The notes below the pieces were generated by a model. That model was not told where the DNA came from, searched no databases, and saw only the letters and a program-made list of their open reading frames with translations. From NCBI RefSeq assembly GCF_024178165.1, contig NZ_JAMZIE010000002.1:496001-560000 (forward strand): a stretch of 64,000 nt of DNA. Direction: 5' to 3'. The position numbers and the translations under genes were made by a program. This stretch comes from Halohasta salina. Lineage in GTDB: Archaea; Halobacteriota; Halobacteria; Halobacteriales; Haloferacaceae. Shown piece after piece: positions 13,863 through 58,807 of the stretch. Every line of letters begins with the position of its first letter. The first letter of the stretch is position 1.

Positions 13863-13982
13863 GGGCGTCGGGTTACGATCTCCCGCACTCGTCGACCGGG
13901 CCGCGTACTTCGCAACCAGTAGCGTCGATATCGCCGCCCCACTCGGGAGATCACTCTGTCGAGGTACCACTGGGTTCCACGA

Positions 13983-14500
13983 TCATCGTGGCGTGGTACC
14001 ACTCACCAGCAAGTGCGACGGCTCGTAGACCAGCCCGACGACGCCGAGCGGACACGCCGTCTCTCCGGTGGTGTCGACGGCGTTGAACAGGATGAAACCG
14101 TCCGAGATGGTAGTCCCGTCTCGTCAGCAACCCCCTCAACAGGGATTCGATCAGCCAGCGATAGGTGCCGTCGCTGGCGACCCTAATACTGTGTGAATTG
14201 CACATACCAGTGGCGACCACTCGACCGGCTGCCGACCCACCAACAACGAGTGCGGTCGATCCAGCTCCGTGTGTTTACACCCAGTTTCCGATCGGGGGTC
14301 GGGCCGAACACTCACGCCGATCACGTGATTCTAACCGACCGACTGCAGCCCGATAGACTGGTTGTCGACGAGCAACACGGCCTCGGAGTAGTCGTTATTT
14401 TCGAAGTGAGGATGCAGAAACGAAGCAGTCGGATCGGTCCCGTGAGTTCCGAACAGACGACATCCGACAGCAGTATATTCTCGCAACGTATTGCATTGTA
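13983..14500 (-). pseudogene. Decayed coding remnants on the minus strand
   Basis: The 781-nt stretch between the OYE gene and the hydrogenase operon has no intact gene. On the minus strand it contains protein-like fragments in different frames: one ending NDYSEAVLLVDNQSIGLQSV then a stop near 14362; another reading VASDGTYRWLIESLLRGLL (about 14185-14130); and a third reading SDGFILFNAVDTTGETACPL up to a stop at 13983-13985. The third has haloarchaeal codon bias (C/G third positions) but lies in a different frame from the second, as expected after frameshifts. I cannot name the ancestral gene, and these may be more than one remnant. Confidence 0.35.
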
Positions 14501-14655: not shown

Positions 14656-15915
14656 ATGGCTCAATCTGGTGTATCGGTGACTGAGTCTGGGACGACACGT
14701 CGGAACTTCTTGCGACTGGTGGGGACGGCCGCGACGGGCTCGGTCATCACCGAGTACAGTTCGGACGTCGCAGCAGCGCTCGACCGTGCGACGAACGGAT
14801 CGAAAGAGGTCGTCTGGTTGCAGGGACAGACCTGTTCGGCATGTACGATGTCGACGCTACAGGGGACGTCACCGAGCCTCGAAGAGGCGGTCTCGGAGTT
14901 CAAACTGGACGTGACCTACCACCCGGAGTTGATGGCCGAAACCGGTGACGCAGCTATCGACGCGATGAGCAGTTCGCCGGACGTGCTGATGATCGAGGGG
15001 GCGATTCCGACGAAGATCCCTTCGGCCGCGACGTTCGGTCGGGACGCCGAGGGCCGTCCCAAACCCATCGTCGACTGGGTACACGAACTCGCCCCGGAGG
15101 CCGAGTACGTCATGGGGATCGGCACGTGTGCCTGCTACGGCGGCTGGCAGTCCGCCGAGAACGGCGCGCCGGCGGTCATGGACGACCCCGAGGAGGGGCC
15201 GTGGTTGGATTCGAACGTCACCGGCGCGAAGGGGGTCCAGTTCACCCACCAGCAGGGCGATCAGGGCGTCCTCGGCCCCGACTTCACCTCGAACGCCGGA
15301 CTGCCCGTGATCAACGTGCCGGGCTGTATGACCCACCCGGACTACGTCCTGTTGACCGTCGCCACGCTGCTGAACGGCCACACCCCGGAACTCGACGAGT
15401 TCAACCGGCCGGAGGCGTTCTACGGGCCGCTCGTCCACGATCAGTGTTCACGGCGGGGCTACTTCGACCGCGGGGAGTTCGTCGACCACGTCGGCGAGGA
15501 CTCCGAGAAGTGTCTCTACACCGTCGGCTGCAAGGGGCCGTACTGTCACTGTGACGACTCGGTTCGCCTCTGGAACGACGGGACGAGCGTCTGCCGGAAC
15601 GTCGGCGCGCCGTGTATCGGCTGTATGGAACCGGGCTTTTGGGACAACATGACGCCGTTCTACGAACCGATCGAGAAACAGGGAATGGGAGTGACCGACA
15701 TCGAAACGGCCGGGAAAGCGGCCGTCGGCGCGACGGTTGCGGGGCTCGGGGCCCACGCCGCACGGAAGGCGACAGGTTACGGTGACACCGACGAACCGCC
15801 GGCCGAAGCCGACGACGAGGCCGCGGAGAACGAACAGCCACCCAAAACGGACGGCTGTGGCTGTGGCAGCGCCTGCGGCTGCCAGCCGGACGACACGGAG
15901 AACACGGAGGACTGA
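14656..15915 (+). CDS. hyaA: [NiFe] hydrogenase small subunit, Tat-exported, membrane-anchored
   Basis: This 419-residue protein carries electrons from the Ni-Fe site through three Fe-S clusters. A Tat signal (TTRRNFLRLVG, R15-R16) is followed by proximal cluster ligands C60, C63, C158 and C224. Distal ligands are H261, C264, C286 and C292. Medial ligands are C299, C320 and C323, plus C313 where the usual enzymes have proline. A C-terminal hydrophobic anchor (about 350-372) and a CxCx3CxC tail (C401-C409) end the protein. The two extra proximal-site cysteines of O2-tolerant enzymes are missing. The ATG at 14656 is preferred over 14644 because of the TATA spacing. It is the first gene of a ten-kilobase operon. 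Confidence 0.92.
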   Translation: MAQSGVSVTESGTTRRNFLRLVGTAATGSVITEYSSDVAAALDRATNGSKEVVWLQGQTCSACTMSTLQGTSPSLEEAVSEFKLDVTYHPELMAETGDAAIDAMSSSPDVLMIEGAIPTKIPSAATFGRDAEGRPKPIVDWVHELAPEAEYVMGIGTCACYGGWQSAENGAPAVMDDPEEGPWLDSNVTGAKGVQFTHQQGDQGVLGPDFTSNAGLPVINVPGCMTHPDYVLLTVATLLNGHTPELDEFNRPEAFYGPLVHDQCSRRGYFDRGEFVDHVGEDSEKCLYTVGCKGPYCHCDDSVRLWNDGTSVCRNVGAPCIGCMEPGFWDNMTPFYEPIEKQGMGVTDIETAGKAAVGATVAGLGAHAARKATGYGDTDEPPAEADDEAAENEQPPKTDGCGCGSACGCQPDDTENTED

Positions 15916-15918
15916 CAG

Positions 15919-17484
15919 ATGCCGGAGATCGAAATCGATCCGACGACACGTATCGAGGGGCACCACAGCACGACGCTCGACGTCGAGAACGGAGTGGTGA
16001 CCGAAGCCAAGAGCCACATGGACATGTTCCGCGGCATGGAGCTGGTCGTGCTGAACCGGCCGCCGTCGGACGCGCCGGTGTTCACCCAGCGCGTCTGTGG
16101 CGTCTGTTTCACGGTCCACCGCCAGACGTCGCTGTTGGCCATCGAGAACGCGGCCAAGAACGCCGGCGTCTTCGACGGCATCCCGGAGACGGCCCGGAAG
16201 ATGCGGAACCTGCTCGAACGCATGGCGACGCTGTGGAACCACGCCGTCCACATGTTCGCGCTCGTCGGGCCGGACTACAGCGACGCCGTCGCCGACACGG
16301 GGCTGACCCGGATCGACCCGATGGAGGGAGAGGGGTACAAAGCCGCCTTGGAGGCCCAACGCGAGCTGCTGTCGGGCTTCGCCGAGTTCGGCGGGAAGGC
16401 TCCCCATCCCCTCACCTACGCCCCCGGTGGGATGTCCGCGAACCCCACGATCGAGAAACTCCAGCAGATCCGCGATCAGGTCGAGTTCGTCAGCGACTGG
16501 CTCGGCCCGACCGACGCCGTCCCCGAAGTCATCGAGAACGTCCGCAACGACGAGTTCGACCCTACGCTGGGCGAGGGGCTCCACGACATCGTGTCGATCC
16601 TCTTTGCCGCCAAGGAGGCCGGTGCCGACGACTTCGGTGTCGGGCCCGGCCGCTACTACTGCAACGGGATCTATCCCGACGAAAATGGCGACGACCAGAT
16701 CCCCTCAGGGATCTACGTCGACGGCGAACTCTCCCATCCCAGCGACGAGGAGATCACGGCGGCGATAACCGAAGACACTGCCCACTCGTGGTACACCGAC
16801 GACTCCGGCGGCCACCCGATGGAGGAGACCCCACCGAAGCCCGACCCCGAAAAGGAGGGGGCCTACTCGTGGGGGAAGGCCCCGCGGTACAACGGGATGA
16901 ACATGGAGACGGGATCGCTGGCCCGCTTGATCATCACGGACAAGGACCCGTTCGATCTACGGTCGACGCTGGGCGGCGACCCGACCAAAAGCAGCACGCT
17001 CAACCGGCTGATCGCCCGTGCCCAGGAGTCACTGCTCCTCCGGGATCAGATTCTGGAACTGCTCGACGACATCGACCCCAACGGGACGGTCAACAACGGC
17101 TGGAGCGACGACTTCAGCGGCGAGGGCGTCGGCCTCTGGGAGGCCTCCCGGGGTGCACTCTCCCACTGGGTGAAGATCGAGGACGGCACCATCACCAACT
17201 ACCAGATCATCACGCCGACGCTGTGGAACCTCGGCCCGCGAGACGAGTCGGGGACGCCGAGCATCTTCGAGGGGGCCGTCGAGGGGATGGCCGTCGAAGA
17301 CGTCGAGAACCCGATCAACGTGATGCGGACGGTCCGGTCGTTCGACCCGTGTCTGGCCTGTTCGGTCCACGTCGAGAGCCCCGACGTGAGCTACACCGAA
17401 GAGATCACGCCGGCCTCGCCGGGCAGCGCGATCGGCGCGGCCTGTGACGCCCCCATCGCCGGCGAGGAGGTCGACGATCCATGA
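15919..17484 (+). CDS. hyaB: [NiFe] hydrogenase large (catalytic) subunit
   Basis: This 521-residue subunit holds the Ni-Fe(CN)2CO site. The N-terminal RIEGHH is followed by the first Cys pair in RVCGVCFTVH (C60, C63, H67) and the second pair in DPCLACSVH (C478, C481, H484). It has no signal peptide, so it should be co-exported with the Tat-bearing small subunit. The 37 residues after His484 are the peptide expected to be removed by the maturation protease encoded two genes downstream; this tail is longer than the roughly 15 residues common in bacterial enzymes. The start is 3 nt after the small-subunit stop, and the stop overlaps the cytochrome b start (ATGA). Confidence 0.93.
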   Translation: MPEIEIDPTTRIEGHHSTTLDVENGVVTEAKSHMDMFRGMELVVLNRPPSDAPVFTQRVCGVCFTVHRQTSLLAIENAAKNAGVFDGIPETARKMRNLLERMATLWNHAVHMFALVGPDYSDAVADTGLTRIDPMEGEGYKAALEAQRELLSGFAEFGGKAPHPLTYAPGGMSANPTIEKLQQIRDQVEFVSDWLGPTDAVPEVIENVRNDEFDPTLGEGLHDIVSILFAAKEAGADDFGVGPGRYYCNGIYPDENGDDQIPSGIYVDGELSHPSDEEITAAITEDTAHSWYTDDSGGHPMEETPPKPDPEKEGAYSWGKAPRYNGMNMETGSLARLIITDKDPFDLRSTLGGDPTKSSTLNRLIARAQESLLLRDQILELLDDIDPNGTVNNGWSDDFSGEGVGLWEASRGALSHWVKIEDGTITNYQIITPTLWNLGPRDESGTPSIFEGAVEGMAVEDVENPINVMRTVRSFDPCLACSVHVESPDVSYTEEITPASPGSAIGAACDAPIAGEEVDDP

Positions 17485-18311
17485 CCACATCGGACCCCGG
17501 TCCAACCGGCGACGAGGCGGCTAATCTGCGCCAGCGACTGGTTGGCCTCGTCGGCTCGGTGCTCGCACCGCCCGAGGAGGCCGACGACCGGTACAGCCGG
17601 GTCCAGGCGCTGAAAGGCCGGGTTACCGTCGAACGACACGGCCTCGGCGCACGACTCTCCCATTGGACGCAGGCGTTTCTGATGTTCGTCCTGATGGGGA
17701 CGGGGTATGCCATCTGGACGGGGAGCTACGGCCCGCTCAACGTCGTGCCGTGGGACGGCTACTACCTCGCCTTCGGGCTGCACATGTGGGCCGGGATCCT
17801 GCTCATGGCGTTTTTGTTCGTCCTGTTCCCGCTGTATCACGTCTACGTCGACGGCCACCGCCAACTGGCCGAACTCGCGGATATCCGGGTGGCGCTGCGG
17901 GTCGGTCAGGCCTTTGTCGGCCTGAAATCCTACATCCCGGGCTACCACGAGGCACGCCAGACCTACGACGAAGAAGACGGCGACTGGGTCGCCTACCACC
18001 CGATGCAGAAGACGTTCTTCTGGTGGGTATCGATCCTCTTCGGCGTGCTCGCGTTGACCGGCTTCGGCATGTATCGGGAGATGCGGTCGGATCCGGCCTG
18101 GTGGGTCGACTGGCTCGGCTTTCTGGACGGCTGGCTGAACATCGTCCTGCTGAAGCAGATCCACCTGCTGACCTTCTTCCTGATCGTGGCGATGGTCGCC
18201 GGTCACGTCTACTTCGCCCTCCTGCCGAGCAACCGGGAGACGCTCAAGTCGATGGTGTTCGGCGAGATGGACGCCTACGTACTAGGGGGAGAGGATGACG
18301 ACGAGCGGTGA
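17481..18311 (+). CDS. hyaC: Hydrogenase cytochrome b subunit
   Basis: This 276-residue protein has four main membrane helices and a polar N-terminal extension of about 50 residues. Candidate haem ligands are histidines in RLSHWTQAF, GLHMWAG, KQIHLLTFF and AGHVYF, the pattern of Ni/Fe-hydrogenase b-type cytochromes (HyaC/HupC). It would take electrons from the distal cluster of the small subunit and reduce quinone. A hydrophilic loop of about 50 residues between helices 2 and 3 (with SYIPGYHEARQTYDEEDG) is also typical. It overlaps the large-subunit stop by 4 nt and the protease start by 17 nt, so translation is probably coupled. Confidence 0.88.
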   Translation: MTTSDPGPTGDEAANLRQRLVGLVGSVLAPPEEADDRYSRVQALKGRVTVERHGLGARLSHWTQAFLMFVLMGTGYAIWTGSYGPLNVVPWDGYYLAFGLHMWAGILLMAFLFVLFPLYHVYVDGHRQLAELADIRVALRVGQAFVGLKSYIPGYHEARQTYDEEDGDWVAYHPMQKTFFWWVSILFGVLALTGFGMYREMRSDPAWWVDWLGFLDGWLNIVLLKQIHLLTFFLIVAMVAGHVYFALLPSNRETLKSMVFGEMDAYVLGGEDDDER

Positions 18312-18816
18312 GGCGACCACAAGCGGAGTAGCGTCGAGTGGCGAGTCGACCGCCACGGAGCCCGCCGTCGAGCAGGCCGTCGTCGGCGTCGGCAGCCGCG
18401 TCATGGGCGACGACGGCGTCGGCTTCCACGCCGTCGAGCGCCTGCAGGACCGCTCGCTGCCCGGCGGCGTAACCGCGACCCACGCCGGAACGACCGCCTT
18501 CCTCGCGCTGGAGGCGATGAGCGGGGCCGACCGCGCGGTCGTCGTCGACGCGCTCGCACTCGACGACGACCCGGGGACGATCCGCGAGTTCCGGCTTCAC
18601 GACGCACCCGAGGAGGCCCCGGAGGTAACGATGCACGACTTCAGCTTCACCGACGCGCTCGCGGTCGGCGACGCTGCCTACGACCTGCCCGAGGAGGTGT
18701 TGCTCGTCGGGGTCGTCCCCGAACGACTCGAACCGAGCCTCGAACTCTCCGAGACGGTCGCGGCGGCGTTACCCGACCTCGTCTCGCGTATCGAAACCCG
18801 ACTCGACACAGCATGA
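18295..18816 (+). CDS. hyaD: Hydrogenase maturation endopeptidase
   Basis: This 173-residue HyaD/HycI-family protease has the diagnostic GVGSRVMGDDGVGFHAVE (nickel-binding Asp within GDDG), a VVVDAL strand carrying a second acidic ligand, and a late HDFSFTDAL histidine. It removes the C-terminal peptide of the large subunit after Ni insertion, triggering closure of the active site. A Thr/Ser/Glu-rich extension of about 25 residues precedes the core and is not part of the conserved fold. The start overlaps the cytochrome b gene, and the stop overlaps the next small gene (ATGA). Confidence 0.88.
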   Translation: MTTSGEATTSGVASSGESTATEPAVEQAVVGVGSRVMGDDGVGFHAVERLQDRSLPGGVTATHAGTTAFLALEAMSGADRAVVVDALALDDDPGTIREFRLHDAPEEAPEVTMHDFSFTDALAVGDAAYDLPEEVLLVGVVPERLEPSLELSETVAAALPDLVSRIETRLDTA

Positions 18817-18992
18817 ACGGAACCTGGTACTGTACCGACTGTGAGGAACAGATCGACAAGGACGCCATCGACGACCACGAGGCCGACGGCCACCACGTCA
18901 AGGGGCATTTCCGCCCCGATCGGCTGTTGTCCGGCGATCCCGAACTCGTCGGCACGCAGGCGGGACTCGGCGATACCGGGGGTGGGTCCTGA
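18813..18992 (+). CDS. Zinc-finger microprotein inside the hydrogenase operon
   Basis: This 59-residue gene is joined to its neighbours by ATGA and TGATG overlaps. The protein begins MNGTWYCTDCEEQIDKDAID and continues with histidines in DDHEADGHHVKGH, giving a C-x2-C plus His-His layout typical of haloarchaeal one-domain zinc-finger microproteins. The rest (about 35-59) is Gly- and Leu-containing and likely flexible. I do not know a named hydrogenase accessory protein of this type. Position between the protease and hypC, with coupled translation, suggests a role in maturation, metal handling or regulation of the enzyme; that is inference. Confidence 0.75.
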   Translation: MNGTWYCTDCEEQIDKDAIDDHEADGHHVKGHFRPDRLLSGDPELVGTQAGLGDTGGGS

Positions 18993-19315
18993 TGTGTCTG
19001 GGCGTCCCCGGCGAGATCAAAGAGATCGACGGCCACGAAGCCGTGGCCGACTTCTGGGGCGTCGAGCGACGCGTCCGCCTCGACGTGGTCGGCGACGCCG
19101 TCGACGTCGGTGACTACATCCTCAACCACGCCGGCTTCGCGATCCGAAAGATCCCCGACCGCGAGGTCGAAGAGACGATGGCGATCTACGAGTCGCTGTT
19201 CGGCGACGACGTCGACGAGGCGCTCGACGAGATCGGCGCGCCCCAGGGTGCGGATATCGACCTCGGCGACGAACAGCCGGCGGCCGAACCCGTGGGTGAG
19301 TCCAATGACGACTGA
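18992..19315 (+). CDS. hypC: Hydrogenase maturation chaperone HypC
   Basis: This 107-residue protein opens MCLGVPGEI, whose Cys2 is the essential ligand that carries the Fe(CN)2CO unit with HypD. The OB-fold core follows (to about residue 75, ending with MAIYESLFG), then an acidic C-terminal tail of about 30 residues typical of halophilic homologues. Its ATG overlaps the stop of the preceding microprotein gene, and its stop overlaps the hypD start by 11 nt. Confidence 0.93.
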   Translation: MCLGVPGEIKEIDGHEAVADFWGVERRVRLDVVGDAVDVGDYILNHAGFAIRKIPDREVEETMAIYESLFGDDVDEALDEIGAPQGADIDLGDEQPAAEPVGESNDD

Positions 19316-20414
19316 GGTCGACGATCTGAAGTTCCGCGACCCGGAGGCCGCAGAGGAACTCGCCGCCGACATCGAGGCCCAGATGGCGCGGATCGACGAG
19401 CCGGTCGAGATCATGCACGTCTGTGGGAGCCACGAGCAGGTCATCGCCAAGTTCGGGCTCCGGAGCATGCTCCCGGCTGACCTCTCGATAACGATGGGAC
19501 CGGGCTGTCCGGTCTGTGTGACGAACATGCCCGAAGTCGACGAGGCGGTGGCGCTCGCGGAGGCCGGCAAGACCGTCGCGACCTACGGCGACATGTTCCG
19601 CGTGCCGGGGACGGTCAAATCACTCGCGGACGCCAAATCGGAGGGCGCGTCGGTCGAGGTCGTCTACAGCGCGAGCGATGCGGTCGACCTCGCCGCGGAA
19701 AACCCCGACGAGGACGTCGTCTTCTTCGCGACCGGCTTCGAGACCACGGCCGCGCCGACCGCGGCCGTCCTGCAGGCCGACCCGCCGGAGAACTTCTACG
19801 TCCTCTCGGCGCACAAGTACGTCCCCCCGGCGATGGAAGTCGTCGCGGAGATGCCCGACACCGACGTCGACGCGTTCCTCGCGGCCGGCCACGCGGCGAC
19901 CATCACGGGCTACGGCCTCTTCGAGGAGTTCACCGACGAGTACGACCTCCCGGTCGTCGTCGGCGGTTTCGAACCGCTCGACGTGCTGTACGGCGTCCGC
20001 AGGATCCTCGAATTCATCGAGGCGGGCGAAAGTGGCCTCGACAACGCCTATCCACGTGGTGTCTCTCGCGAGGGTAACGTGGCGGCAATGGGTGCCATTG
20101 ACGAGGTGTTCGAGCGCACGTCCGGCGAGTGGCGCGGTATCGCCGAGATCCCGGAGGCCAACTTCGTCCTGCGCGACGACTACGCAGCCCACAGCGCCCG
20201 CCGACAGTTCGACGTCGAGGCCGTCGACGGGGCGGGCGATCCCCTCACCGAGGAGTGTATTTGTGGCAATATCATGGCCGGAACGGCCTCGCCAAAGGAG
20301 TGTGATCTGTTCGGCGAGGAGTGTACGCCGTCGAACCCGGTCGGGGCGTGTATGGTCTCCGACGAGGGCACCTGCAAGATCGCCCTCGAGTACGGGGGGC
20401 AGCCGGACCTATGA
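19305..20414 (+). CDS. hypD: Hydrogenase maturation protein HypD
   Basis: This 369-residue Fe-S protein is the scaffold on which Fe(CN)2CO is assembled with HypC. Visible signatures are HVCGSHE (active Cys), GPGCPVC, FFATGFETTAAPTAA, and the C-terminal cluster-binding cysteines in ECICGNIMAGTASPKEC followed by ECTPSNPVGACMVSDEGTC. The ATG at 19305 is used because it gives the normal HypD N terminus; the open frame upstream is simply hypC read in another phase. It overlaps hypE by 4 nt. Confidence 0.94.
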   Translation: MTTEVDDLKFRDPEAAEELAADIEAQMARIDEPVEIMHVCGSHEQVIAKFGLRSMLPADLSITMGPGCPVCVTNMPEVDEAVALAEAGKTVATYGDMFRVPGTVKSLADAKSEGASVEVVYSASDAVDLAAENPDEDVVFFATGFETTAAPTAAVLQADPPENFYVLSAHKYVPPAMEVVAEMPDTDVDAFLAAGHAATITGYGLFEEFTDEYDLPVVVGGFEPLDVLYGVRRILEFIEAGESGLDNAYPRGVSREGNVAAMGAIDEVFERTSGEWRGIAEIPEANFVLRDDYAAHSARRQFDVEAVDGAGDPLTEECICGNIMAGTASPKECDLFGEECTPSNPVGACMVSDEGTCKIALEYGGQPDL

Positions 20415-21442
20415 GCGACGAGACGGTAACCGTCGCCCACGGCTCCGGAGCCGGGAAGACCCGGGAGTTCATCGAGGACCGTATCTGCTCGCGGTTCGCC
20501 GACGCTGGCGGAGACCCGGACCTCGCCGTCGGCCTCGGGGCACTCGACGACGGCGCGGTCCACGATCTCGGCGACCAGTCGGTGGTCGTCACGACCGATA
20601 GCCACGTCGTCTCGCCGCTGTCGTTCCCGGGCGGCGACATCGGTCGGCTGGCCGTCGCGGGGACGGTCAACGATCTGGCGGTCATGGGGGCAACCGACCC
20701 ACTCTCGCTTACCTGTTCGCTCGTCGTCGAGGCGGGGACGTCTCTCGACCTGCTGGAGGAGATCCTCGACTCGATGCAGGCCGCCTGCGAGGAGGCCGGC
20801 TGTGCCATCACCACCGGCGACACGAAGGTGATGGGCAGCGGCGAGATCGACGGGATCGTCATCAACACCACGGGGGTCGGCGTCCTCCCGCGGGGCGAGC
20901 ACGTTCCCGACGCGGGCCTCTCGCCGGGTGACAAACTCGTTCTCTCGGGGCCAGTCGGCGACCACGGCATCACGCTACTGGCCGAGCGCGAGGGGTTCGA
21001 TATCGACGGCGACCTCACGAGCGACGTCGCGCCGATCAACGACATCGTCGACGCCGCACTCGACACGGGGACCGTCACCGCGATGAAAGACCCGACGCGG
21101 GGCGGGCTCGCGACCGCACTCAACGAGATGGTTCGGAAGGCCGACATCGGGGCGACGGTCGACGAGACCGCGATCCCGGTCCGCGAGTCGGTCGCGGCGG
21201 CGGGCGAACTCCTCGGGATCGACCCCTTCGACGTGGCCAACGAGGGGAAGGTCGTCTTCGGCGTCGACGCCGCCGACGCCGAGGCCGTCGTCGAGGCGAT
21301 CCGGTCGACCCAACGGGGGAGCGACGCCGCCGTCATCGGCGAGGTCACCGCGGACAACGCCGGGCGGGTCGTCCTCGACACCGGGTTCGGACGCCGCTAC
21401 CTGAGTGAACCGGAGGGCGAACAGCTCCCACGGATCTGCTGA
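20411..21442 (+). CDS. hypE: Hydrogenase maturation protein HypE
   Basis: This 343-residue member of the PurM/SelD-like ATP-dependent family dehydrates the thiocarbamate on its C-terminal cysteine to thiocyanate, the source of the active-site cyanides. Features are the N-terminal HGSGAGKTREFIED, TDSHVVSPLSFPGGDIGRLA, KDPTRGGLATALNE and, decisively, the terminal P-R-I-C. It works with HypF, which is encoded three genes downstream. The ATG overlaps the hypD stop (ATGA), and hypA starts 2 nt after its own stop. Confidence 0.95.
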   Translation: MSDETVTVAHGSGAGKTREFIEDRICSRFADAGGDPDLAVGLGALDDGAVHDLGDQSVVVTTDSHVVSPLSFPGGDIGRLAVAGTVNDLAVMGATDPLSLTCSLVVEAGTSLDLLEEILDSMQAACEEAGCAITTGDTKVMGSGEIDGIVINTTGVGVLPRGEHVPDAGLSPGDKLVLSGPVGDHGITLLAEREGFDIDGDLTSDVAPINDIVDAALDTGTVTAMKDPTRGGLATALNEMVRKADIGATVDETAIPVRESVAAAGELLGIDPFDVANEGKVVFGVDAADAEAVVEAIRSTQRGSDAAVIGEVTADNAGRVVLDTGFGRRYLSEPEGEQLPRIC

Positions 21443-21444
21443 GC

Positions 21445-21885
21445 ATGCACGAACTCAGCCTCGCGGAGGCACTGCTCGACCGGGCCGCCGAGGTCGCCGC
21501 CGAACACGACGCCGAGACCGTCGACGCGCTGACCGTCGAACTCGGTGCGGCGACCCACGTCAACCCCGACCAGTTGCGGTTCTGTCTCGAAACGGTCGCG
21601 ACGGCGACGGTCGCGGCGGATGCCACGGTCGACATCGAGACCGTCACCCCACGCGCGGCCTGCGACTGCGGCTGGGAGGGCGAGCCGCCGAGCTTCGAGG
21701 GGACCGCAGCCGTCGTACCGACGGCTCGCTGTCCGGAGTGTGGCGACCGGACCGAGTTCGTCCGCGGAAAGGAGTGTCACCTGACCGCCGTCTCCGTCCC
21801 TGACGACGCCGAGTCGACCACCGCCGAGAACGACAGCGATTCGACTTCCACCGAGAACGACACAGAAGCGACCACCACCGAATAG
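21445..21885 (+). CDS. hypA: Hydrogenase nickel-insertion protein HypA
   Basis: This 146-residue protein begins MHELSLAEALLDRA, where the invariant Met-His-Glu binds nickel. A zinc site follows with cysteines in ACDCGWEG and RCPECGD. The last 30 residues are a Thr/Glu/Asp/Ser-rich tail (DDAESTTAENDSDSTST and on), an extension relative to the usual length of about 115. HypA hands nickel to the large subunit together with HypB, encoded immediately downstream. Confidence 0.93.
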   Translation: MHELSLAEALLDRAAEVAAEHDAETVDALTVELGAATHVNPDQLRFCLETVATATVAADATVDIETVTPRAACDCGWEGEPPSFEGTAAVVPTARCPECGDRTEFVRGKECHLTAVSVPDDAESTTAENDSDSTSTENDTEATTTE

Positions 21886-21897
21886 GAGCACGACACC

Positions 21898-22764
21898 ATG
21901 ACGACAGTACCCACCGCGAGACGGATGCATCGAACACCAATCGACCGGCTGCTGGCCGCTCTGTTCGGTCGATCACAGCGATCACAGCGAGCGCCGATCG
22001 CCCGCGCCCACCGGTTCGGCCACGATCACGACGAGTCGACCGAGTCGGAGGCCGCCGACGACGTACTCGCACAGTTCCGCGAGCAGGCCCAGGCGCTCCA
22101 CGAGGAGGTCGTCCACGACCACGGCGTGTTCGTCGTCGAGTTCCTCGGGGCGACCGGCAGCGGCAAGACGACGCTCGTCGAGCGACTTATCGAGCGCGCC
22201 CCGAACGACGAGCAGATCGGTGTCGTCGTGGGCGACGTGGCCGGGGACGACGACGCGAGCCGGTTCCGTGACCACGGCGTGTCGGTCGCCAACGTCACGA
22301 CCGGCAAGGAGTGTCACCTCGACCCCGGCCTGTTGGAGGGGGCCCTCTCCGAGTTCGATCTCGACGAACTGGATCGGCTGTACGTCGAAAACGTCGGCAA
22401 CATGGTCTGTCCGGCCGACTTTCCGCTCGGCGCACAGGCACGGGTCCTCGTCGTGAGCACGACCGAAGGCGACGACGTGGTGCGCAAACACCCGCTGTTG
22501 TTCGAGGCCTGCGACGCCGCGGTCGTCAACAAGGTCGACATCGCGGATGCCGTGGGAGCCGATCTCGACCGCATGGCCGCGGATGTCCAGGATGTCGTCC
22601 CTGACATGGACGTGTTCCGGACGAACGCACGGGCCGACGAGGGTGTCGACGACCTCGCGTCGTTCCTGGCCAACCTCCGGACGGGCGACCACCACCATCA
22701 CGGCCACGGCAACCACGATCACGCCCATGACGACCACGTAGGGACACACGACCACCACGACTGA
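21898..22764 (+). CDS. hypB: Hydrogenase nickel GTPase HypB with His-rich C terminus
   Basis: This 288-residue SIMIBI GTPase has its P-loop in GATGSGKTTLVE (residues 84-91 core), then VGDVAGDDDASR, TGKECHLDP, the YVENVGNMVCP metal-switch segment, and NKVD for guanine recognition. It drives nickel insertion with HypA. Twelve of the last 26 residues are histidine, and a few more (HRFGHDHDE) lie in the N-terminal extension. His-rich nickel-storage segments of HypB are usually N-terminal, so the C-terminal placement is unusual. A GGAG-type sequence stands before the ATG. Confidence 0.92.
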   Translation: MTTVPTARRMHRTPIDRLLAALFGRSQRSQRAPIARAHRFGHDHDESTESEAADDVLAQFREQAQALHEEVVHDHGVFVVEFLGATGSGKTTLVERLIERAPNDEQIGVVVGDVAGDDDASRFRDHGVSVANVTTGKECHLDPGLLEGALSEFDLDELDRLYVENVGNMVCPADFPLGAQARVLVVSTTEGDDVVRKHPLLFEACDAAVVNKVDIADAVGADLDRMAADVQDVVPDMDVFRTNARADEGVDDLASFLANLRTGDHHHHGHGNHDHAHDDHVGTHDHHD

Positions 22765-22766
22765 CG

Positions 22767-25067
22767 ATGGTCGACACCTGCCGAGCGACGGTCCGTATCT
22801 CCGGCACCGTGCAGGGTGTCGGATTCCGGCCGTTCGTCTACCGAACCGCGGTCGAGGCGGGCGTGACGGGCCACGTCCGCAACGCGGGTGGGACCGTCGA
22901 GGCCGCCTTCGAGGGCCCCCGCGATGCGGTCGAGGATGTAGTAGCGACCGTCCGAGACGACACCCCGCCGCTGGCGACGGTCGACGCCATGACGGTCGAC
23001 TGGGGTGAGCCGGCCGGTGACGATAGCTTCGAGATCCGCGACTCCGAGGCCGACGCCAGCGGCGGGATCGACGTTCCCGTCCCGCCGGACACGGGGATCT
23101 GTGAGGCGTGTCTCGACGACGTTCGCGATCCGTCCTCGCCGTACCACGACTACTGGGCGACCGCCTGCGTCGACTGTGGCCCGCGGTTTACCGCCGTCCG
23201 GGACGTTCCCTACGATCGAACCCGGACGTCGATGGCCGACTTCCCCCTGTGTGATGACTGTCGGGAGCGCTACGAGACGCCGACGGACCGACGCTACCAC
23301 GCCCAGACGACCGCCTGTCCGGACTGCGGGCCGACCCTCCAGTATGAGGTCGACGGCTCCCCCGTAACGACTGGCAACGACGTGCTCCGGCGGGCTGGCG
23401 ACGCGCTATCCGCCGGAAATATCATCGCGGTCAAAGGGATCGGCGGGTTCCATCTCGTCTGTGACGCGACTGACCCGGCGGTCGTCGACGCGCTCCGGGA
23501 GCGCACGGGACGGCCCGCCAAACCGTTCGCCTGTATGGTCCCATCGCTCGACAGCCTCAGTGGGTTCGCCGCGGTCGACGAGGCTGAGGCCGACGCACTC
23601 GGCGACATTCGCCGGCCGATCGTCCTGGTCGACAAAGCCGCCGAGACACCGTGGCTTGAGGCGGTCGCCCCGGGACTCGACACCCTCGGCGTGATGTTGC
23701 CGTACGCCGGCCTCCACCATCTCCTGTTCGACCACGTCTCCGGCCCGCTCGTGATGACGAGTGCGAACCGCCCGGGCGAACCGATGTGTACGACCGCCGA
23801 CGCGGTGTGGGCGCGACTCGACGGAGTAGTCGACGGCGTGCTCACTCACGACCGCGAGATCGTCGCCCGGTGTGACGACAGCGTCGTCCGCGTCGTCGAC
23901 GGCGACCGACGGTTCGTCCGTCGCTCCCGTGGCTGGACGCCGACGACCCTCCCGAACCCCGCGGGGGACAGCGAGACAGCGCCCGTGGTGGCGCTGGGCC
24001 CAGAGCGGGACGCCACGGTCGCCGTCGCGACGGGCGAGGGGGTCGTCGTCTCCCAGCACCTCGGCGATATCGACGGCCCCGAGGCGCTGTCGTTTCACCG
24101 CGAGGCGGTCGACCACTTGTGTCGACTGACCGACATCGAACCCGAGGTCGTAGCCTGCGACCAGCATCCCGAGTTCCTCACGACCGCCGAGGCCGACAGC
24201 TACGCCGCCGAGGGGACAGAGGGCCCGGTCGCCGTCCAGCACCACCACGCACACGCCGCCGGGTTGTGTGCCGAACACGGCATAGAGCGGGCCATCGTCG
24301 TGACGGCCGACGGAACCGGCTACGGGCCGGACGGAACGGTGTGGGGTGGCGAGGTCCTCGACGTCCAGTACGCCGACTTCGAGCGTGTCGGCGGACTGGG
24401 ACCGTTCCCACTGCCGGGCGGACGGGCGGCCGTCGAATACCCGGCCCGCGTGCTCGCCGGTCTGCTTGCAGACCCCATCGTCGACGACCGACTCGTCGAG
24501 ACCGGGGCCGTCGACTCGCGGGCGGAGGCGACGGTCGTCCGTCAGCAGGCCGAAACCGGGGTCAACGCGCCGACAACCACGAGTGCGGGGCGGGTGCTCG
24601 ACGCGGTGAGCGCGCTGGTCGGTGCCTGCGACAGGCGGACCTACGAGGGCGAACCCGCCCAGCGGCTCGAAGCCCTTGCCACCAACGGCACGGTCCAGCC
24701 GATAGACATCCAGTACCGCTCTACTAACGGCCGTCGCGTTTTGGACACACAGTCCCTCGTTTCGGCTCTCGCCGACATGCTGACTCGCCAGTCGGCGGCC
24801 GACGTGGCGGCGACGGCCCAAGCCGCCGTGGCGCGCGGGCTCGGGACGCTCGCGGTCGCGGCTGCGAGGAGACGCGATGTGGGGACGATCGGGTTCACCG
24901 GTGGCGTCGCCTACAACGACGCCATCAATCGACACCTCCGAGCGGTCGTCGAGGGTGCGGGTCTCACGTTGCTCACACCGAATGCCGTCCCGCCCGGCGA
25001 CGGGGGGATCGCCTACGGACAGGCCATCGTCGCCACCTCGCGCTCGGTCGACCGACATAACGAGTAG
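22767..25067 (+). CDS. hypF: Carbamoyltransferase HypF
   Basis: This 766-residue enzyme transfers the carbamoyl group of carbamoyl phosphate to HypE. The domains are in standard order: acylphosphatase-like (1-90, VQGVGFRPFVYR), two zinc fingers (about 110-190, CEACLDDVRDP, CVDCGPRF, CDDCRERYE, CPDCGP), YrdC-like (about 200-390, KGIGGFHLVCDA) and Kae1/HypF_C (about 400-760, HHHAHAAGLCAEHGI and the ADGTGYGPDG nucleotide loop). It is the last gene of the hydrogenase operon; about 130 nt of unassigned sequence separate it from a convergent gene. Confidence 0.95.
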   Translation: MVDTCRATVRISGTVQGVGFRPFVYRTAVEAGVTGHVRNAGGTVEAAFEGPRDAVEDVVATVRDDTPPLATVDAMTVDWGEPAGDDSFEIRDSEADASGGIDVPVPPDTGICEACLDDVRDPSSPYHDYWATACVDCGPRFTAVRDVPYDRTRTSMADFPLCDDCRERYETPTDRRYHAQTTACPDCGPTLQYEVDGSPVTTGNDVLRRAGDALSAGNIIAVKGIGGFHLVCDATDPAVVDALRERTGRPAKPFACMVPSLDSLSGFAAVDEAEADALGDIRRPIVLVDKAAETPWLEAVAPGLDTLGVMLPYAGLHHLLFDHVSGPLVMTSANRPGEPMCTTADAVWARLDGVVDGVLTHDREIVARCDDSVVRVVDGDRRFVRRSRGWTPTTLPNPAGDSETAPVVALGPERDATVAVATGEGVVVSQHLGDIDGPEALSFHREAVDHLCRLTDIEPEVVACDQHPEFLTTAEADSYAAEGTEGPVAVQHHHAHAAGLCAEHGIERAIVVTADGTGYGPDGTVWGGEVLDVQYADFERVGGLGPFPLPGGRAAVEYPARVLAGLLADPIVDDRLVETGAVDSRAEATVVRQQAETGVNAPTTTSAGRVLDAVSALVGACDRRTYEGEPAQRLEALATNGTVQPIDIQYRSTNGRRVLDTQSLVSALADMLTRQSAADVAATAQAAVARGLGTLAVAAARRRDVGTIGFTGGVAYNDAINRHLRAVVEGAGLTLLTPNAVPPGDGGIAYGQAIVATSRSVDRHNE

Positions 25068-48368: not shown

Positions 48369-48461
48369 CCGTGTCGTCGACTCGCGACAGTGGCATGGCA
48401 ACACGCCACAACCACGGACGCACGTAACGGTTATCATGCTACTCTACCACATCGAAACCAC

Positions 48462-53725: not shown

Positions 53726-54289
53726 CTATTCCAGCAGCACCTCGCGGGTCGTCCGCGCCAGCGCGGCGTAGAATCCCTCGCAGGTCTCGGCTTCGACCCG
53801 GTCGAGGAACGTGTCAGCCCAGACGCGGAGGTGTTCGTCGAGGAACTGTTCGAGCCGGTCGACGCGTCCCTCGTCGGCGAGGGCGGCGGCGAACTCCAGT
53901 TCGGCCGCGATGTGGTCCGGCAGGTCCGAGTACTCCGGGGCGGGGTGGACGCCGAAGGCCCGATACCACCGTCTGACCGCGACCGTCGACGGGCCCTCGA
54001 CCGGACCGAACTCCGCGTCGTCCTCCCCGTCGCGGTAGACGCTCTCGTAGGGGGGACACGGCGGTCCCGCCGGCCCGATGAACAGCCGGGTGTACTCGAC
54101 GCGGAGGTCGTCGGGGTCGACGCCGTCGAGGTCGCCGACGACCGGCGTCAGTTCCCCCTCGTTGGCGACGGCGACCAGCCGGTCGGACGGCTCGCGCCAA
54201 CACACGGCGAGGACCGCGTAGGTCGCCGCGAGGTCGGACTCCAGCCCGTCGACGCTGTCCGTGGTCGGGCGGTCGGTGGTGTCGCTCAT
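53726..54289 (-). CDS. dmsD: TorD/DmsD-family chaperone for the molybdoenzyme
   Basis: This 187-residue helical protein shows YAVLAVCWREPSDRL, EYTRLFIGPAGPPCPPYESVY, and late LPDHIAAELEFAAAL, the TorD family pattern (L..Y..LF.GP..P.PPYES). It binds the Tat signal of the molybdoenzyme and aids cofactor insertion before export. It is the last gene of the DMSO-reductase-type operon. Its start overlaps the NrfD stop by 3 nt. Confidence 0.88.
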   Translation of the reverse strand: MSDTTDRPTTDSVDGLESDLAATYAVLAVCWREPSDRLVAVANEGELTPVVGDLDGVDPDDLRVEYTRLFIGPAGPPCPPYESVYRDGEDDAEFGPVEGPSTVAVRRWYRAFGVHPAPEYSDLPDHIAAELEFAAALADEGRVDRLEQFLDEHLRVWADTFLDRVEAETCEGFYAALARTTREVLLE

Positions 54290-55590
54290 GTGGTGTCCTC
54301 GTGGCCGCCATCAGTTGCATACGAGCGCTGTCCGTCGGGCTGCTGGATCGGGACGTACCGCATGCCGACGGTGACGATGAGGGCACCGACGGCGATGATC
54401 CCGAGGGTGACCACGACCTCGACCAGCGTCGGCGTGTAGGATCCGGCGGTCGCCCAGATGTCGGTCCCGACACCGGCGTAGGTGCCGCCGAGGGAGATCC
54501 CCGGCGCGGCATCGATGTTGGCGACCTCGTAGCCCGTGAACACCAGCCGGATTCCCTCGAACATCGTCCCGACGACCGCCAGCGCGCCAGCGGTGACGAT
54601 GACCGGCACGCGCTTCCGCAGCGAGGGGATCGCCAACAGCCCCAGCGGCAGTGCCCCGCCGACGACCGTCCACAGCCAGAAGTACGCCGACTCGCCGATG
54701 AGGAAGCTCCCGGTGATCGCCCAGAACTCGAAGTGGTTGGCCCAGGCGTGTGGCAGCCGTTCGGCCGCCAGCAGGTAGACCACGTGGAACGCGAGGAAGA
54801 TGCCCAGCACCTTCCCGAGGCTCGCGAGTTCTTCGCGGTCGACTCGGAAGCGCGTGAACCGGTCGGCGAGCACGGCGACGACCAACAGGAGGCCGAGGCC
54901 GGAGACGAGCGCCTTCGCGATGAAGACGGGCGCGACGAGCGGGCTGAACCAGTCGCCACGACCGATCTGGGTCGCGAAGATCCAGCCGGTCACCGAGTGG
55001 AGCGCGACCGCCGTCGGCAACGCGACCGTCGCCGTCCAGAACATCAGCTTGCGGTCGCGCTCGCGGCCCGCCTCGGTGTCCTCGCGGCCGAACGCTAGCC
55101 GCGAGCCGGCGGCGGCCAGATCACGGCGGGTCAACAGCCACAGGTACCAGAGGTTGAGCGCCCCGTAGAGGAGGACGATCCCGAAGTCCCACACCATCGG
55201 CGACCGGAAGTCCGGCGAGGTGACAAACTGGTAGAGTCGCTCTGGCCGGCCGATGTCGGGGAGGATGAGCAGTCCCGCGACGGTGATACACGCGAGGCTC
55301 ACCAGCACGCCGAGGCGGGCGAACCCCTCGTAGCGGTGGGAGTGGAAGAACTTCGGCGCGCTCGAAATGATGAGTCCGCCCGCCGACAGCCCGACGAACA
55401 GGACGAACATCATGATGTACAACCCCCACGAGAAGACGTTTCGCATCCCGGTGGCGATCAGTCCCGTGGTGAGTTGGTACCCCCAGGCGGCCAGCCCGGC
55501 GACGATCAGCGCCCCCAGCAGGCCGAGCCAGAGTTTCCCCTTCCGGCCGAAGGCGGGGACCGCGATCCCAGAGGACTCGGTCGACGCCAT
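54286..55590 (-). CDS. dmsC: NrfD-family membrane anchor subunit
   Basis: This 434-residue protein has about ten membrane helices of the NrfD/PsrC/DmsC class. Visible points are GLYIMMFVLFVGLSAGGLII, a long GRPERLYQF loop, TGWIFATQIGRGDW and LPHAWANHFEFWAI. These subunits oxidise quinol and pass electrons to the Fe-S subunit. It overlaps the Fe-S gene by 1 nt (ATTA type) and the chaperone gene by a few nucleotides, so the four structural genes form one transcript. Confidence 0.9.
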   Translation of the reverse strand: MASTESSGIAVPAFGRKGKLWLGLLGALIVAGLAAWGYQLTTGLIATGMRNVFSWGLYIMMFVLFVGLSAGGLIISSAPKFFHSHRYEGFARLGVLVSLACITVAGLLILPDIGRPERLYQFVTSPDFRSPMVWDFGIVLLYGALNLWYLWLLTRRDLAAAGSRLAFGREDTEAGRERDRKLMFWTATVALPTAVALHSVTGWIFATQIGRGDWFSPLVAPVFIAKALVSGLGLLLVVAVLADRFTRFRVDREELASLGKVLGIFLAFHVVYLLAAERLPHAWANHFEFWAITGSFLIGESAYFWLWTVVGGALPLGLLAIPSLRKRVPVIVTAGALAVVGTMFEGIRLVFTGYEVANIDAAPGISLGGTYAGVGTDIWATAGSYTPTLVEVVVTLGIIAVGALIVTVGMRYVPIQQPDGQRSYATDGGHEDTT

Positions 55591-56324
55591 TAGTCGTCAC
55601 CTCCCGATTTCGCCGCGGGCACGCCTGGCATCGCGTCGTCGTCGAGTTCGCTCTCCAGTTTGTCGCTCGTCTGGGGTCGACCGGGGCTCATCTCGCCACG
55701 GATGTAGTACGTCTTGGGGTCGGTCCCCCGGTCTTCGAGCAGCCGGTCGGTCTCGTAGTTGTTGACGTACTTCGAGACGGTGCTGGTCTCCTCGTCGAGG
55801 TCGCCGAAGATCCGGGCGTCGGCCGGACAGTTGACGACACAGGCGGGGTCGAGCCCCTCGTCGACGCGGTGGCTACAGAACGTACACTTCTCGACGACGC
55901 CCTGCGGTCGGGCCTCGACGTCGCCGGTTCCCTCCTCGGGGACGTGTTCGGGCTCGTCCCAGTTGAACACCCGCGCGTTGTACGGACAGGCGGCCATACA
56001 GTACCGGCAGCCGATACACTTGTCGTAGTCGATCTCGACGATCCCGTCGTCCCGGGTGTAGGTCGCGTTGACCGGGCAGACCTTCACGCAGGGGGCGTTC
56101 TCACAGTGCTGGCAGGCCGTCGGCTGGTAGTGCATGTCCAGGGTGCCGTCGTCCCCGTCTTCGGGGTACCCCCCTGCCGGGGTGTCGAGCTTGTCGCCGC
56201 CCTCGGTGAGCACCCGGTTCCAGAACTGCCCCATCGGGACGTTGTTCTCCTGCTTACACGAGACGGCACAGGCCTGACAGCCGATACACCGTTCCTGGTC
56301 GATTACTAAGCCGTAGTTCGTCAT
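55590..56324 (-). CDS. dmsB: Four-cluster Fe-S electron-transfer subunit
   Basis: This 244-residue protein has the DmsB/NrfC/PsrB layout with Cys motifs CIGCQACAVSCK, CQHCENAPCVKVCP, CIGCRYCMAACP and CTFCSHRV-x-CVVNCP for four [4Fe-4S] clusters. It conducts electrons between the membrane subunit and the molybdenum subunit and has no signal peptide of its own. An acidic loop (TLDMHYQPTAC and preceding GGYPEDGDDG) is a halophilic insertion. It starts 2 nt after the molybdenum-subunit stop. Confidence 0.92.
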   Translation of the reverse strand: MTNYGLVIDQERCIGCQACAVSCKQENNVPMGQFWNRVLTEGGDKLDTPAGGYPEDGDDGTLDMHYQPTACQHCENAPCVKVCPVNATYTRDDGIVEIDYDKCIGCRYCMAACPYNARVFNWDEPEHVPEEGTGDVEARPQGVVEKCTFCSHRVDEGLDPACVVNCPADARIFGDLDEETSTVSKYVNNYETDRLLEDRGTDPKTYYIRGEMSPGRPQTSDKLESELDDDAMPGVPAAKSGGDD

Positions 56325-56326
56325 TG

Positions 56327-58807
56327 TCAGTCACCTCCAGTGTGGGGAGTCGCCGCACCGGACCCCTTGGGGTTCCCCTCCGTGTACATGCTGGTGTCGA
56401 CGTCCTCGGGTGCGGGTTCGACCGCCACACGGACGTCGTAGAACGCCATACACCGGCCGACATCGCTGGTCTCGTTGTGTGTGAGGTCGTTGAGGTGGCC
56501 CTCGACGAAGTCCCGTGCCCACCATCCCTGATCGGTGTTGACCAGACCGGGCTGGAACGCCTCGTTGTACTTCGCCTTCACGACCATCTCGCCGCGGTCG
56601 TTGTACACTCGGACGTACTCGTCGTCCTCGATGCCGCGGGCCTTCGCGTCCCGCGGGTGGATGTCCAGTTGCGGTTCGGGATTGATCTCGCGGCTCCAGT
56701 TCACCATCTCGTACTGCGAGTGGATGCGGAAGCGACTGTGCTTCTGCATGAACATGAGGGGGTACTCGTCGGCCTGCTCGTGGTCGTCGGCCGTCCGGTC
56801 TTCCAGCGGCCGCGGCAGCTCGAAGGAGACGCCCTCCTCGCTCGGGGCGTCGTCGTCGTACAGCTCGATGCGCCCCGTCTCGGTGGGGAACTCGTCGGTG
56901 TACTTGACGACCGGCGTGGTCTCCTTGCGCTGGGTCCCCTGTTCGTACAGCGTCTCGAAGTCGATGGCGTCGTCCCGGCTGGCGAGCTCCCGGAGCATCT
57001 CGCGTTTCGTCTCGGGGAACCGGTCGCCGAAGCCGAGTCGCTCGGCCAGACCACGGATGGCCTCGTAGTCGTCTCTGGTCTCCCAGAGCGGCTCCTGGAC
57101 CCTGTGTCGGTAGCCGAGGTGTGGGTGCGACCCCCAACCGGAGATGATGTCCTCCTGTTCGAACCAGTGGGGCACCGGCAGGACGATGTCGGCCTGCTGG
57201 ACCGTATCCGTGTGGTGCATGTCGGCAACCACGTACATCTCGAGGTTCTCGATAGCGTTCTGGTAGCGCTGGCGGTCGGGGAACTGGTTGCCCATCATGT
57301 TCGACTCGATGGAGTAGACGGCCCGGATCTCGTGGGGATCGCCGTCGATCATCGCGTCGGGGTACTCCGGGAAGATCAGCGACGGCCCGGGGTCGACGTC
57401 CGACGGCGCTGCCCAGTCGCCGGCGGCGAGCGTCGTTCCGCCGGGGTGGTGGGCGTGAATGTTGCCGTGGTTCCCGTAGTCGCCGGTCATCGCCAGCATG
57501 ATCGCGTAGGCCTGCCCGAAGATGTGGCCGTGTGTGTACCGACCGAGGGCGTAGCTCGACGCGATGCCGCCGGGACCCCGGGTGGCCAGCCAGCGCGCGG
57601 CCGTGCGGATGTTGTCGGCGTCGACGCCGGTCTTCTCGGCGACCGCCGCGGGCGCGTGGTCGGCGGCGTGGTCACGGAGCTTCGTCAGCGAGGTCACACA
57701 CTCGACGCCGTCGACCGTGTACTCGCCAAACAGGGCGTAGTCCCCCTCGGTTTCGGGTTCGAGGGCGACCGGTTCGCCGTCTTCGATCGCGACGACCTGA
57801 TCGTCGCGCCCGTCGACCGAGACGTCGGCCGCCCGGAGCAGTTCGCCGGTGTCGGTGCGGACCAATGCGGGGGCGGTCGTCCGGCTGCGGAGGAAGTCGG
57901 TGTCGTAGGTTTCCTCCTCGAAGACGGTGTGCATCATCGCGAGGATGAGGTAGACGTCCTTGCCGGGTTTGACCGGGAGCCACAGGTCGGCTTTCGACGC
58001 CGTCGTCGTGTACACCGGGTCGACGACGACGAGTTTCGCCCCGTTTTCGACCGCATCCAGCACCTTCGAGGCGTCCATCTGGAACTGGCTGGAGAAGATG
58101 TCCGACCCCCAGACGATGATCGTGTTGGCGTTCTCCCAGTCCTCGGACTCGTTTGTCGGCGGGAGGAACGCGCCGTGGCCGGTGATGCGGTTGAATCCCT
58201 TGCCGACGTTGGTATCGATCCCCCACGCCGACTGGGTCGCGCCGAACAGCGAGGCCAGCCGCTTGAACGATTTGCCCGTCTGTCCGTAGTTCCCCGATCC
58301 CTCGTGGAACAGGACGCTCTCGGCACCGTACTCTGATTTCAGCGACTGCATCTTGTCGGCGACCAGATCCAGCGCCTCGTCCCACGAGATCCGCTCGAAC
58401 TCCGCCTCCGGCCCTCTCCCCGTCGGATTGGGCTCGTCGGGCGACCAGTCGGCGCGCTTCATCGGGTACTTCAGCCGCGTCGGATCGTAGACGCGCTGGG
58501 TGTGTGACAGGCCGAGCACGCAGGCCCGTTTGTACTGTTCGTCCTCCGGCGGATGTGGCTCGATCTTCTTTATTTGGCCGTCCCGCACGTGGACGTCGAT
58601 CGGACACTTCCCACGGCAGTTCGGCGAACAGACCGTCTGGGTGACCTCGTTTTGGCCGACGAAACTCTCGAGGCCGGTAGCCGTCGACGCTCCATCGCCG
58701 CCGCTGGCGAGTGCGTTGAGATAGCCACCGCCGCCGAGCCCGAGTGCGGCGGCCGCCCCACCGGCTTTCAGTACGTCGCGTCGGCCGACGTCCTCCGAGT
58801 CACCCAT
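56327..58807 (-). CDS. dmsA: Molybdopterin oxidoreductase, DMSO/TMAO-reductase type, Tat-exported
   Basis: This 826-residue catalytic subunit has a Tat signal (VGRRDVLKAGG), an N-terminal [4Fe-4S] site (CSPNCRGKC then RACVLG) and the molybdopterin domains. In the segment where family members place the Mo ligand it reads HEGSGNYGQTGKSF, containing Ser but no Cys or Asp. This fits DMSO/TMAO reductases (Ser) better than Psr, Phs, Ttr or Nap (Cys). Gene order (small protein, A, B, C, chaperone, with a Bat-family regulator alongside) repeats the dmsREABCD locus described in Halobacterium. The exact substrate (DMSO, TMAO or a sulfur or selenium oxyanion) remains uncertain. It overlaps the small upstream gene by 8 nt. 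Confidence 0.87.
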   Translation of the reverse strand: MGDSEDVGRRDVLKAGGAAAALGLGGGGYLNALASGGDGASTATGLESFVGQNEVTQTVCSPNCRGKCPIDVHVRDGQIKKIEPHPPEDEQYKRACVLGLSHTQRVYDPTRLKYPMKRADWSPDEPNPTGRGPEAEFERISWDEALDLVADKMQSLKSEYGAESVLFHEGSGNYGQTGKSFKRLASLFGATQSAWGIDTNVGKGFNRITGHGAFLPPTNESEDWENANTIIVWGSDIFSSQFQMDASKVLDAVENGAKLVVVDPVYTTTASKADLWLPVKPGKDVYLILAMMHTVFEEETYDTDFLRSRTTAPALVRTDTGELLRAADVSVDGRDDQVVAIEDGEPVALEPETEGDYALFGEYTVDGVECVTSLTKLRDHAADHAPAAVAEKTGVDADNIRTAARWLATRGPGGIASSYALGRYTHGHIFGQAYAIMLAMTGDYGNHGNIHAHHPGGTTLAAGDWAAPSDVDPGPSLIFPEYPDAMIDGDPHEIRAVYSIESNMMGNQFPDRQRYQNAIENLEMYVVADMHHTDTVQQADIVLPVPHWFEQEDIISGWGSHPHLGYRHRVQEPLWETRDDYEAIRGLAERLGFGDRFPETKREMLRELASRDDAIDFETLYEQGTQRKETTPVVKYTDEFPTETGRIELYDDDAPSEEGVSFELPRPLEDRTADDHEQADEYPLMFMQKHSRFRIHSQYEMVNWSREINPEPQLDIHPRDAKARGIEDDEYVRVYNDRGEMVVKAKYNEAFQPGLVNTDQGWWARDFVEGHLNDLTHNETSDVGRCMAFYDVRVAVEPAPEDVDTSMYTEGNPKGSGAATPHTGGD

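Follow-up and report, generated by a model that had tools for sequence, protein, structure and literature searches.

A 64,000-nucleotide stretch of the Halohasta salina genome (hereafter the window) carries an eleven-gene operon which, judged from its sequence, is that of a membrane-bound H2-uptake [NiFe] hydrogenase with a full maturation kit. Operons of this type are already on record from haloarchaea; the unreported part is the gene for a 59-amino-acid (aa) zinc-finger microprotein located between the hydrogenase endopeptidase gene and hypC. The best overall explanation, to which we give a probability of about 0.7, is an H2-uptake enzyme that would be matured with the finger acting as an accessory of the endopeptidase, would deliver its electrons to anaerobic sinks and would belong to a mobile clade of operons. 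Two earlier studies reported H2-dependent growth of haloarchaea with group 1 hydrogenases, encoded in operons in which hydD adjoins hypA-F, with a plasmid location, and termed these operons suitable for lateral transfer and O2-sensitive (Sorokin 2017/2018; PMC5437934, PMC6176080). The available main-text passages of both papers make no mention of the zinc finger, and in the homologous operon of plasmid pAArc1-02 from Natrarchaeobaculum sulfurireducens AArc1, which has the same gene order, the small open reading frame (ORF) is annotated as 'hypothetical'.

Operon organization and clade placement

The eleven genes abut or overlap on the forward strand between positions 14656 and 25067, in the order hydS-hydL-cytb-protease-59-aa ORF-hypC-D-E-A-B-F (Table 1). 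Both this layout and its interpretation as a full operon for an H2-uptake hydrogenase, maturation genes included, had been proposed in an initial annotation of the window, and both hold: Pfam or NCBIfam matches back ten of the eleven gene calls, the 59-aa ORF rests on conservation, and families and motifs agree. The order is identical in nine named genomes as well as in more distant loci of subclade B (see below), and a hydrogenase of this type is present in a single copy in the genome. Positions 19305 and 20411 are possible starts of hypD and hypE, and an AT-rich motif (tttattaaat) located 20–29 bases 5' of the ATG at 14656 makes a single TATA promoter for the operon plausible. Alignment of HydL to solved hydrogenases recovered both Ni-ligand motifs, L1 (RVCGVC) and L2 (DPCLACSVH), whose absence had been named beforehand as grounds for rejecting the assignment; a C-terminal extension that the protease could remove follows DPCLACSVH. 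The small subunit has a twin-arginine translocation (Tat) motif (TRRNFLRL) and the PF01292 cytochrome b provides an anchor, features of membrane-bound group 1 enzymes.

In a tree of 68 large subunits, the 33 haloarchaeal sequences group into a single clade (100/100) that splits into three subclades. Subclade A comprises the window and its close operon relatives from Halonotius, Haloplanus, Halorussus, Halobiforma, Natronomonas, Halovenus and Salinibaculum, while subclade B holds the AArc1 type and its kin. In subclade C, a twin-arginine motif is missing from most small subunits, and no gene for a cytochrome b was detected in the operons; six of its loci (L051, L065, L066, L067, L068 and L069), which show no clear Tat signal, no detected cytochrome b gene and a protease–zinc finger fusion, apparently encode cytosolic two-subunit enzymes. 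The haloarchaeal clade is placed with other archaeal enzymes, apart from the bacterial 1a–1d references; its nearest well-supported non-haloarchaeal large subunits are those of family f21 (98/97, although long branches meet there), which we infer to be Archaeoglobi. It did not join the lone 1a-type reference of the tree (a partial NiFeSe sequence) and was not grouped with the O2-tolerant 1d references. Haloarchaeal relatives were assigned by HydDB to group 1a, according to the 2018 study (PMC6176080), and HydDB separated the Archaeoglobi enzymes from 1a as 1j (PMC5037454); in view of this split, the 1a label is worth rechecking.

The survey covered 391 Halobacteria genomes from 86 genera. A [NiFe] large subunit of any kind was found in 41 genomes and 20 genera, and the clade of the window in 27 genomes (about 7%; a combined count from survey, loci and tree). 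The operon is not ubiquitous in haloarchaea, in agreement with the initial annotation. The same annotation had restricted H2 use to a few anaerobic sulfur-respiring lineages; this is too narrow given the counts above and the facultative aerobes with H2 genes reported in 2018 (PMC6176080). Two other groups were also seen in the survey: a second haloarchaeal hydrogenase type (L071–L075), with large subunits of 606–657 aa about 30% identical to that of the window, a very long branch and no zinc finger, and distant [NiFe] large subunits, HoxH-like by eye and not of group 1 type (L078 in G038, also G091, G112, G165, G169 and G287).

A conserved zinc finger beside the endopeptidase

The 59-aa ORF, for which no Pfam or NCBIfam family was matched, is on comparative grounds a real gene, since it is conserved in nine other subclade A operons (64–84% identity) and its family shows 15 invariant residues in 23 sequences (alignment A1). 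The latter include W5, C7, C10, H22, H27 and a PxRLLxxDP tail (P35, R37, L38, L39, D42, P43). The finger of the window reads CTDC followed by H-x4-H; the C-x2-C and H-x4-H spacings are invariant in the 23 sequences, and zinc binding is predicted from this arrangement. The proline of a CPxC motif occurs in none of the 23, and a few relatives read CxxCG, which would fit a looser form of the CPxCG-like pattern. An AlphaFold model shows a strand-strand-helix-strand arrangement, with a predicted local distance difference test (pLDDT) score of about 89 over residues 11–30.

Strong matches (E < 1e-20) were found in 25 of the 391 genomes, always beside the hydrogenase clade of the window and all among its 27 genomes, whereas ten weaker ones were core-finger only or chance matches. 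The finger was not found in sampled genomes with other hydrogenase types, nor in 13 non-haloarchaeal relatives. Weak homologues of the finger core also occur in genera g62 and g80 (L152–L156), with no hydrogenase or hyp genes within about 6–8 kb; the g62 paralogues, considered as possible hyp-linked forms, were rejected because they have no operon neighbours.

In the window, the finger gene is the fifth of the eleven and overlaps the protease gene by four bases (ATGA) and hypC by one. Most loci of subclades A and B show a 1- or 4-base overlap with the protease gene, with a few exceptions where 4 to 121 bases separate the two genes, and the one-base overlap with hypC is found in all but one of the hypC-bearing loci. 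Additionally, the finger adjoins the protease in four loci devoid of hyp genes (L062, L063, L064 and L076), indicating that it goes with the protease and not with the Hyp proteins. In six subclade C loci, protease and finger are fused in frame into one ORF encoding a single protein.

Evidence for transfer or descent of the operon

Movement of this operon clade between haloarchaeal families is supported by two kinds of sequence comparison. In several genomes of other families, identity to the window is as high for hydL as for RpoB' or higher (89.6% vs 84.9% in Halorussus, 87.3% vs 81.5% in Halovenus salina and 84.4% vs 82.9% in Natronomonas), and the structural and Hyp trees disagree over Salinibaculum, Halovenus, Natronomonas and Halobiforma (approximately unbiased (AU) test, p of 0.012 and 0.0014, for groups picked after the trees were seen). 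The structural and maturation halves also appear to have been exchanged separately at times. Two genomes of the same family as the window (G018 and G374) carry a B-type hydL, about 61% identical to that of the window.

For the copy in the window itself, vertical descent followed by loss is about as good a fit as transfer, which tempers the idea of a mobile operon. According to this alternative, which in our estimate falls slightly short of an even chance, the operon was inherited from an ancestor shared with Halonotius and Haloplanus and was lost in the sequenced congeners, with no recent transfer into the lineage. The window copy groups with these two same-family genera both in the structural tree (91/96) and in the Hyp tree (99/99), in line with RpoB', which likewise unites them in a single family, so that descent with loss in congeners is possible; likewise, hydL shows no excess over RpoB' in identity to Halonotius (92.7% vs 94.2%). 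On the other hand, Halorussus, from another family, joins the group, two near-complete congeners do not have the operon (for a third, genome completeness is only 83%), the synteny of the left flank with congener G003 breaks off at about 12.65 kb, short of the operon, and the remnant of an insertion sequence (IS) borders it. This transposase remnant, located upstream of hydS, is 69–72% identical at the DNA level to congener copies across some 350 bp. Its reading frame contains a stop, and the protein is split into two pieces read in different frames; PF13610/PF13683 are matched by an intact copy. In congener G002 (L183, 1676-2950), a TnpB-like ORF (IS200/IS605 type, by eye) directly follows an intact IS6-type transposase.

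The flank comparison that the initial annotation had called for thus gave a colinear left side and no exact empty site in the congeners, where the right flank is located elsewhere or broken by contig ends. Its view of the operon as a transferable module stands for the clade, in the form of transfer between families; it is not new, as the idea is already present in the 2018 study (PMC6176080), and for the window genome the arrival may have been vertical.

Proposed maturation scheme and role of the finger

The finger is most likely an endopeptidase accessory that helps to recognise or release the HydL precursor, a placement based on the gene fusions in six loci. That it represents a new dedicated [NiFe] maturation factor, which would work with the endopeptidase (as a separate protein here, fused to it in subclade C) in checking or presenting the C-terminal end of precursor HydL, we rate as an even bet. 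In the scheme proposed, HypF and HypE would produce the cyanide ligands, the Fe(CN)2CO unit would be put together by HypC and HypD, and nickel would be inserted by HypA and HypB. HydD would then cut the HydL tail after DPCLACSVH, aided by the 59-aa finger in recognition or release of the precursor, and the folded heterodimer would cross the membrane via Tat, carried by the small subunit. If true, the finger would add an endopeptidase partner step that is absent from the standard scheme of HypA-F plus protease, and this conserved protease-linked protein is the part of the operon worth following.

Several points weigh against a maturation role. The finger is missing at the locus in two genomes with hydrogenase and protease (G119 and G334), and it is thus not absolutely required; its structural model is moderately confident overall (pLDDT 69) and a structure search with it gave only non-significant B-box/ZZ matches. 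Moreover, a finger encoded near its target can also be a regulator: Brz of Halobacterium salinarum is a small zinc finger encoded beside bop and needed for bop transcription, and small zinc-finger proteins of this type are common in haloarchaea (PMC2253796). The 59-aa protein might by analogy be a small, Brz-like transcriptional regulator of the operon, which we consider unlikely because such a role leaves the six protease fusions unexplained, the gene lies in the middle of the operon and overlaps both neighbours, and CTDC stands in place of the CPxCG-like pattern by which the Brz family is defined.

Metal clusters, oxygen and candidate electron acceptors

All ligand Cys/His residues of the proximal, medial and distal Fe-S clusters were found in the alignment of the small subunit. 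In the medial cluster one Cys is displaced by two residues and a Cys takes the place of the Pro found in standard [NiFe] enzymes, so that a [4Fe-4S] medial cluster is predicted; a Cys at this position is also a feature of [NiFeSe] enzymes. This Pro to Cys change is shared by the aligned haloarchaeal sequences of subclades A, B and C and by the f21 archaeal relatives. The four proximal Cys are normal, and the two extra Cys of O2-tolerant enzymes are missing, as the initial annotation had noticed: CSAC and CYGG are read here instead of CTCC and SWGC in E. coli HyaA and Cupriavidus HoxK, with A and G in place of C. The six-Cys proximal cluster of group 1d is thus absent from the small subunit of the window.

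From the membrane the electrons would pass to menaquinone via the b-type cytochrome, and their likely sinks would be anaerobic reductases, such as the dimethyl sulfoxide (DMSO)-reductase-like complex encoded 29 kb away by a molybdenum (Mo)-enzyme operon (Table 1), whose functional tie to the hydrogenase is presumptive. The genome encodes several Mo enzymes alongside its four heme-copper oxidases, and the organism is therefore probably facultatively anaerobic. According to the 2018 study (PMC6176080), the AArc strains conserved energy by oxidizing H2 anaerobically with sulfur or DMSO and did not use H2 aerobically, and this behaviour is the best guide to the enzyme of the window. The capacity for H2 oxidation would extend to a genus of haloarchaea equipped for aerobic respiration, and the presence of the clade in about 7% of the sampled genomes suggests that the role of H2 as an electron donor in brines may have been overlooked.

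The four oxidase genes count in favor of a different use, in which the hydrogenase feeds H2 electrons into the aerobic respiration of an otherwise aerobic cell, and among the carriers of the subclade are genera usually regarded as aerobic. We regard such a role as improbable given the missing proximal Cys, the lack of grouping with the 1d references, the Mo-reductase genes (one set of them in the window) and the failure of AArc1 to use H2 aerobically (PMC6176080). That the enzyme is a true [NiFeSe] hydrogenase, or a membrane hydrogenase of the O2-tolerant kind, is rejected on sequence, for although NiFeSe models are among the best NCBIfam scores and the medial Cys recalls them, the scores fall under the NiFeSe cut-offs, the Ni ligands are all Cys (including that of L2, where a selenocysteine would be expected) with no in-frame TGA, and the extra proximal Cys are absent. 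An apparent internal TGA in the large-subunit matches of G046 and G061 was likewise discarded, as the G046 ORF already holds DPCLACSVH and the TGA is its normal stop codon, located shortly before the query match ends.

Other features were observed in passing. The small subunit of the window ends, after its membrane anchor, in a Cys-rich tail (CGCGSACGC) that has a variant form in Halonotius and Salinibaculum litoreum and is absent from Halovenus salina. At three other loci, L053 (small subunit, 12933-14027, reverse strand), L052 (12592-13428, reverse strand) and L102, a proximal-cluster Cys is replaced by Asp (CSGD, DAGC, DNGC). They are reminiscent of the Asp-ligated clusters of O2-insensitive actinobacterial enzymes. 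A sugar/glycerol-type cluster (45325-51495) of the window includes an FGGY kinase, a class II aldolase and the anaerobic glycerol-3-phosphate dehydrogenase GlpA/GlpB.

Table 1. Coordinates of the hydrogenase operon, the bordering transposase remnant and the Mo-enzyme operon in the window (TMAO, trimethylamine N-oxide).
Feature	Position	Strand	Length (aa)	Family match (E-value)	Remark
IS6/IS240-type DDE transposase gene	14118..14465	-			Degenerate remnant, 190 bp upstream of hydS
HydS/HydA, small subunit	14656..15915	+	419	TIGR00391, PF14720, PF01058	Tat-exported; alternative start 14644
HydL/HydB, [NiFe] large subunit	15919..17484	+	521	PF00374 (8.8e-88)	
HydC, b-type cytochrome membrane subunit	17481..18311	+	276	PF01292 (7.1e-18)	
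HydD, hydrogenase maturation endopeptidase	18295..18816	+	173	TIGR00072 (6.2e-36), PF01750	
C2H2 zinc-finger microprotein	18813..18992	+	59		Conserved family; proposed endopeptidase partner
HypC	18992..19315	+		PF01455 (1.4e-22)	
HypD	19305..20414	+		TIGR00075 (8e-126)	
HypE	20411..21442	+		TIGR02124 (1e-109)	
HypA, Ni metallochaperone	21445..21885	+		PF01155 (1.1e-23)	
HypB, Ni-inserting GTPase	21898..22764	+		TIGR00073 (7.5e-69)	His-rich C-terminus; alternative start 21925
HypF, carbamoyltransferase	22767..25067	+		TIGR00143 (5.3e-234)	
Mo-enzyme operon, DMSO/TMAO-reductase superfamily	53726..58807	-			Candidate electron sink
Mo operon, catalytic subunit	56327-58807				Tat-exported
Mo operon, Fe-S subunit	55590-56324				
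Mo operon, NrfD-like membrane subunit	54286-55590				
Mo operon, DmsD-like chaperone	53726-54289				

Comparison with known systems

The hydABC-hydD-hypA-F operons of Halodesulfurarchaeum formicicum and N. sulfurireducens resemble that of the window in their Tat-exported small subunit and cytochrome b. The window belongs to subclade A, whose members are 75–93% identical, whereas the AArc1 type forms subclade B, with about 60% HydL identity and a larger cytochrome b (about 295–331 aa). The f21 enzymes, presumed to be of the Archaeoglobi type (group 1j), share with the enzyme of the window the Cys at the medial Pro position; they are about 40–45% identical to it, their genomes yielded no zinc finger when searched, unlike the haloarchaeal operons, and a GPYxxCDD loop near the medial cluster is specific to haloarchaea as compared with f21/1j-type enzymes. 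Brz and the CPxCG small zinc-finger proteins (PMC2253796) are, like the 59-aa protein, shorter than 70 aa, with a Cys/His finger and encoded beside functional neighbours, but the latter differs by its C-x2-C and H-x4-H arrangement with a RPxRLLxxDP tail, its location within an enzyme operon and its fusion to the protease elsewhere. Finally, the hydrogenase operon of plasmid pHG1 from Cupriavidus necator likewise includes a gene for a small metal-binding protein among the maturation genes; that protein is a rubredoxin whereas the one of the window is a C2H2 finger.

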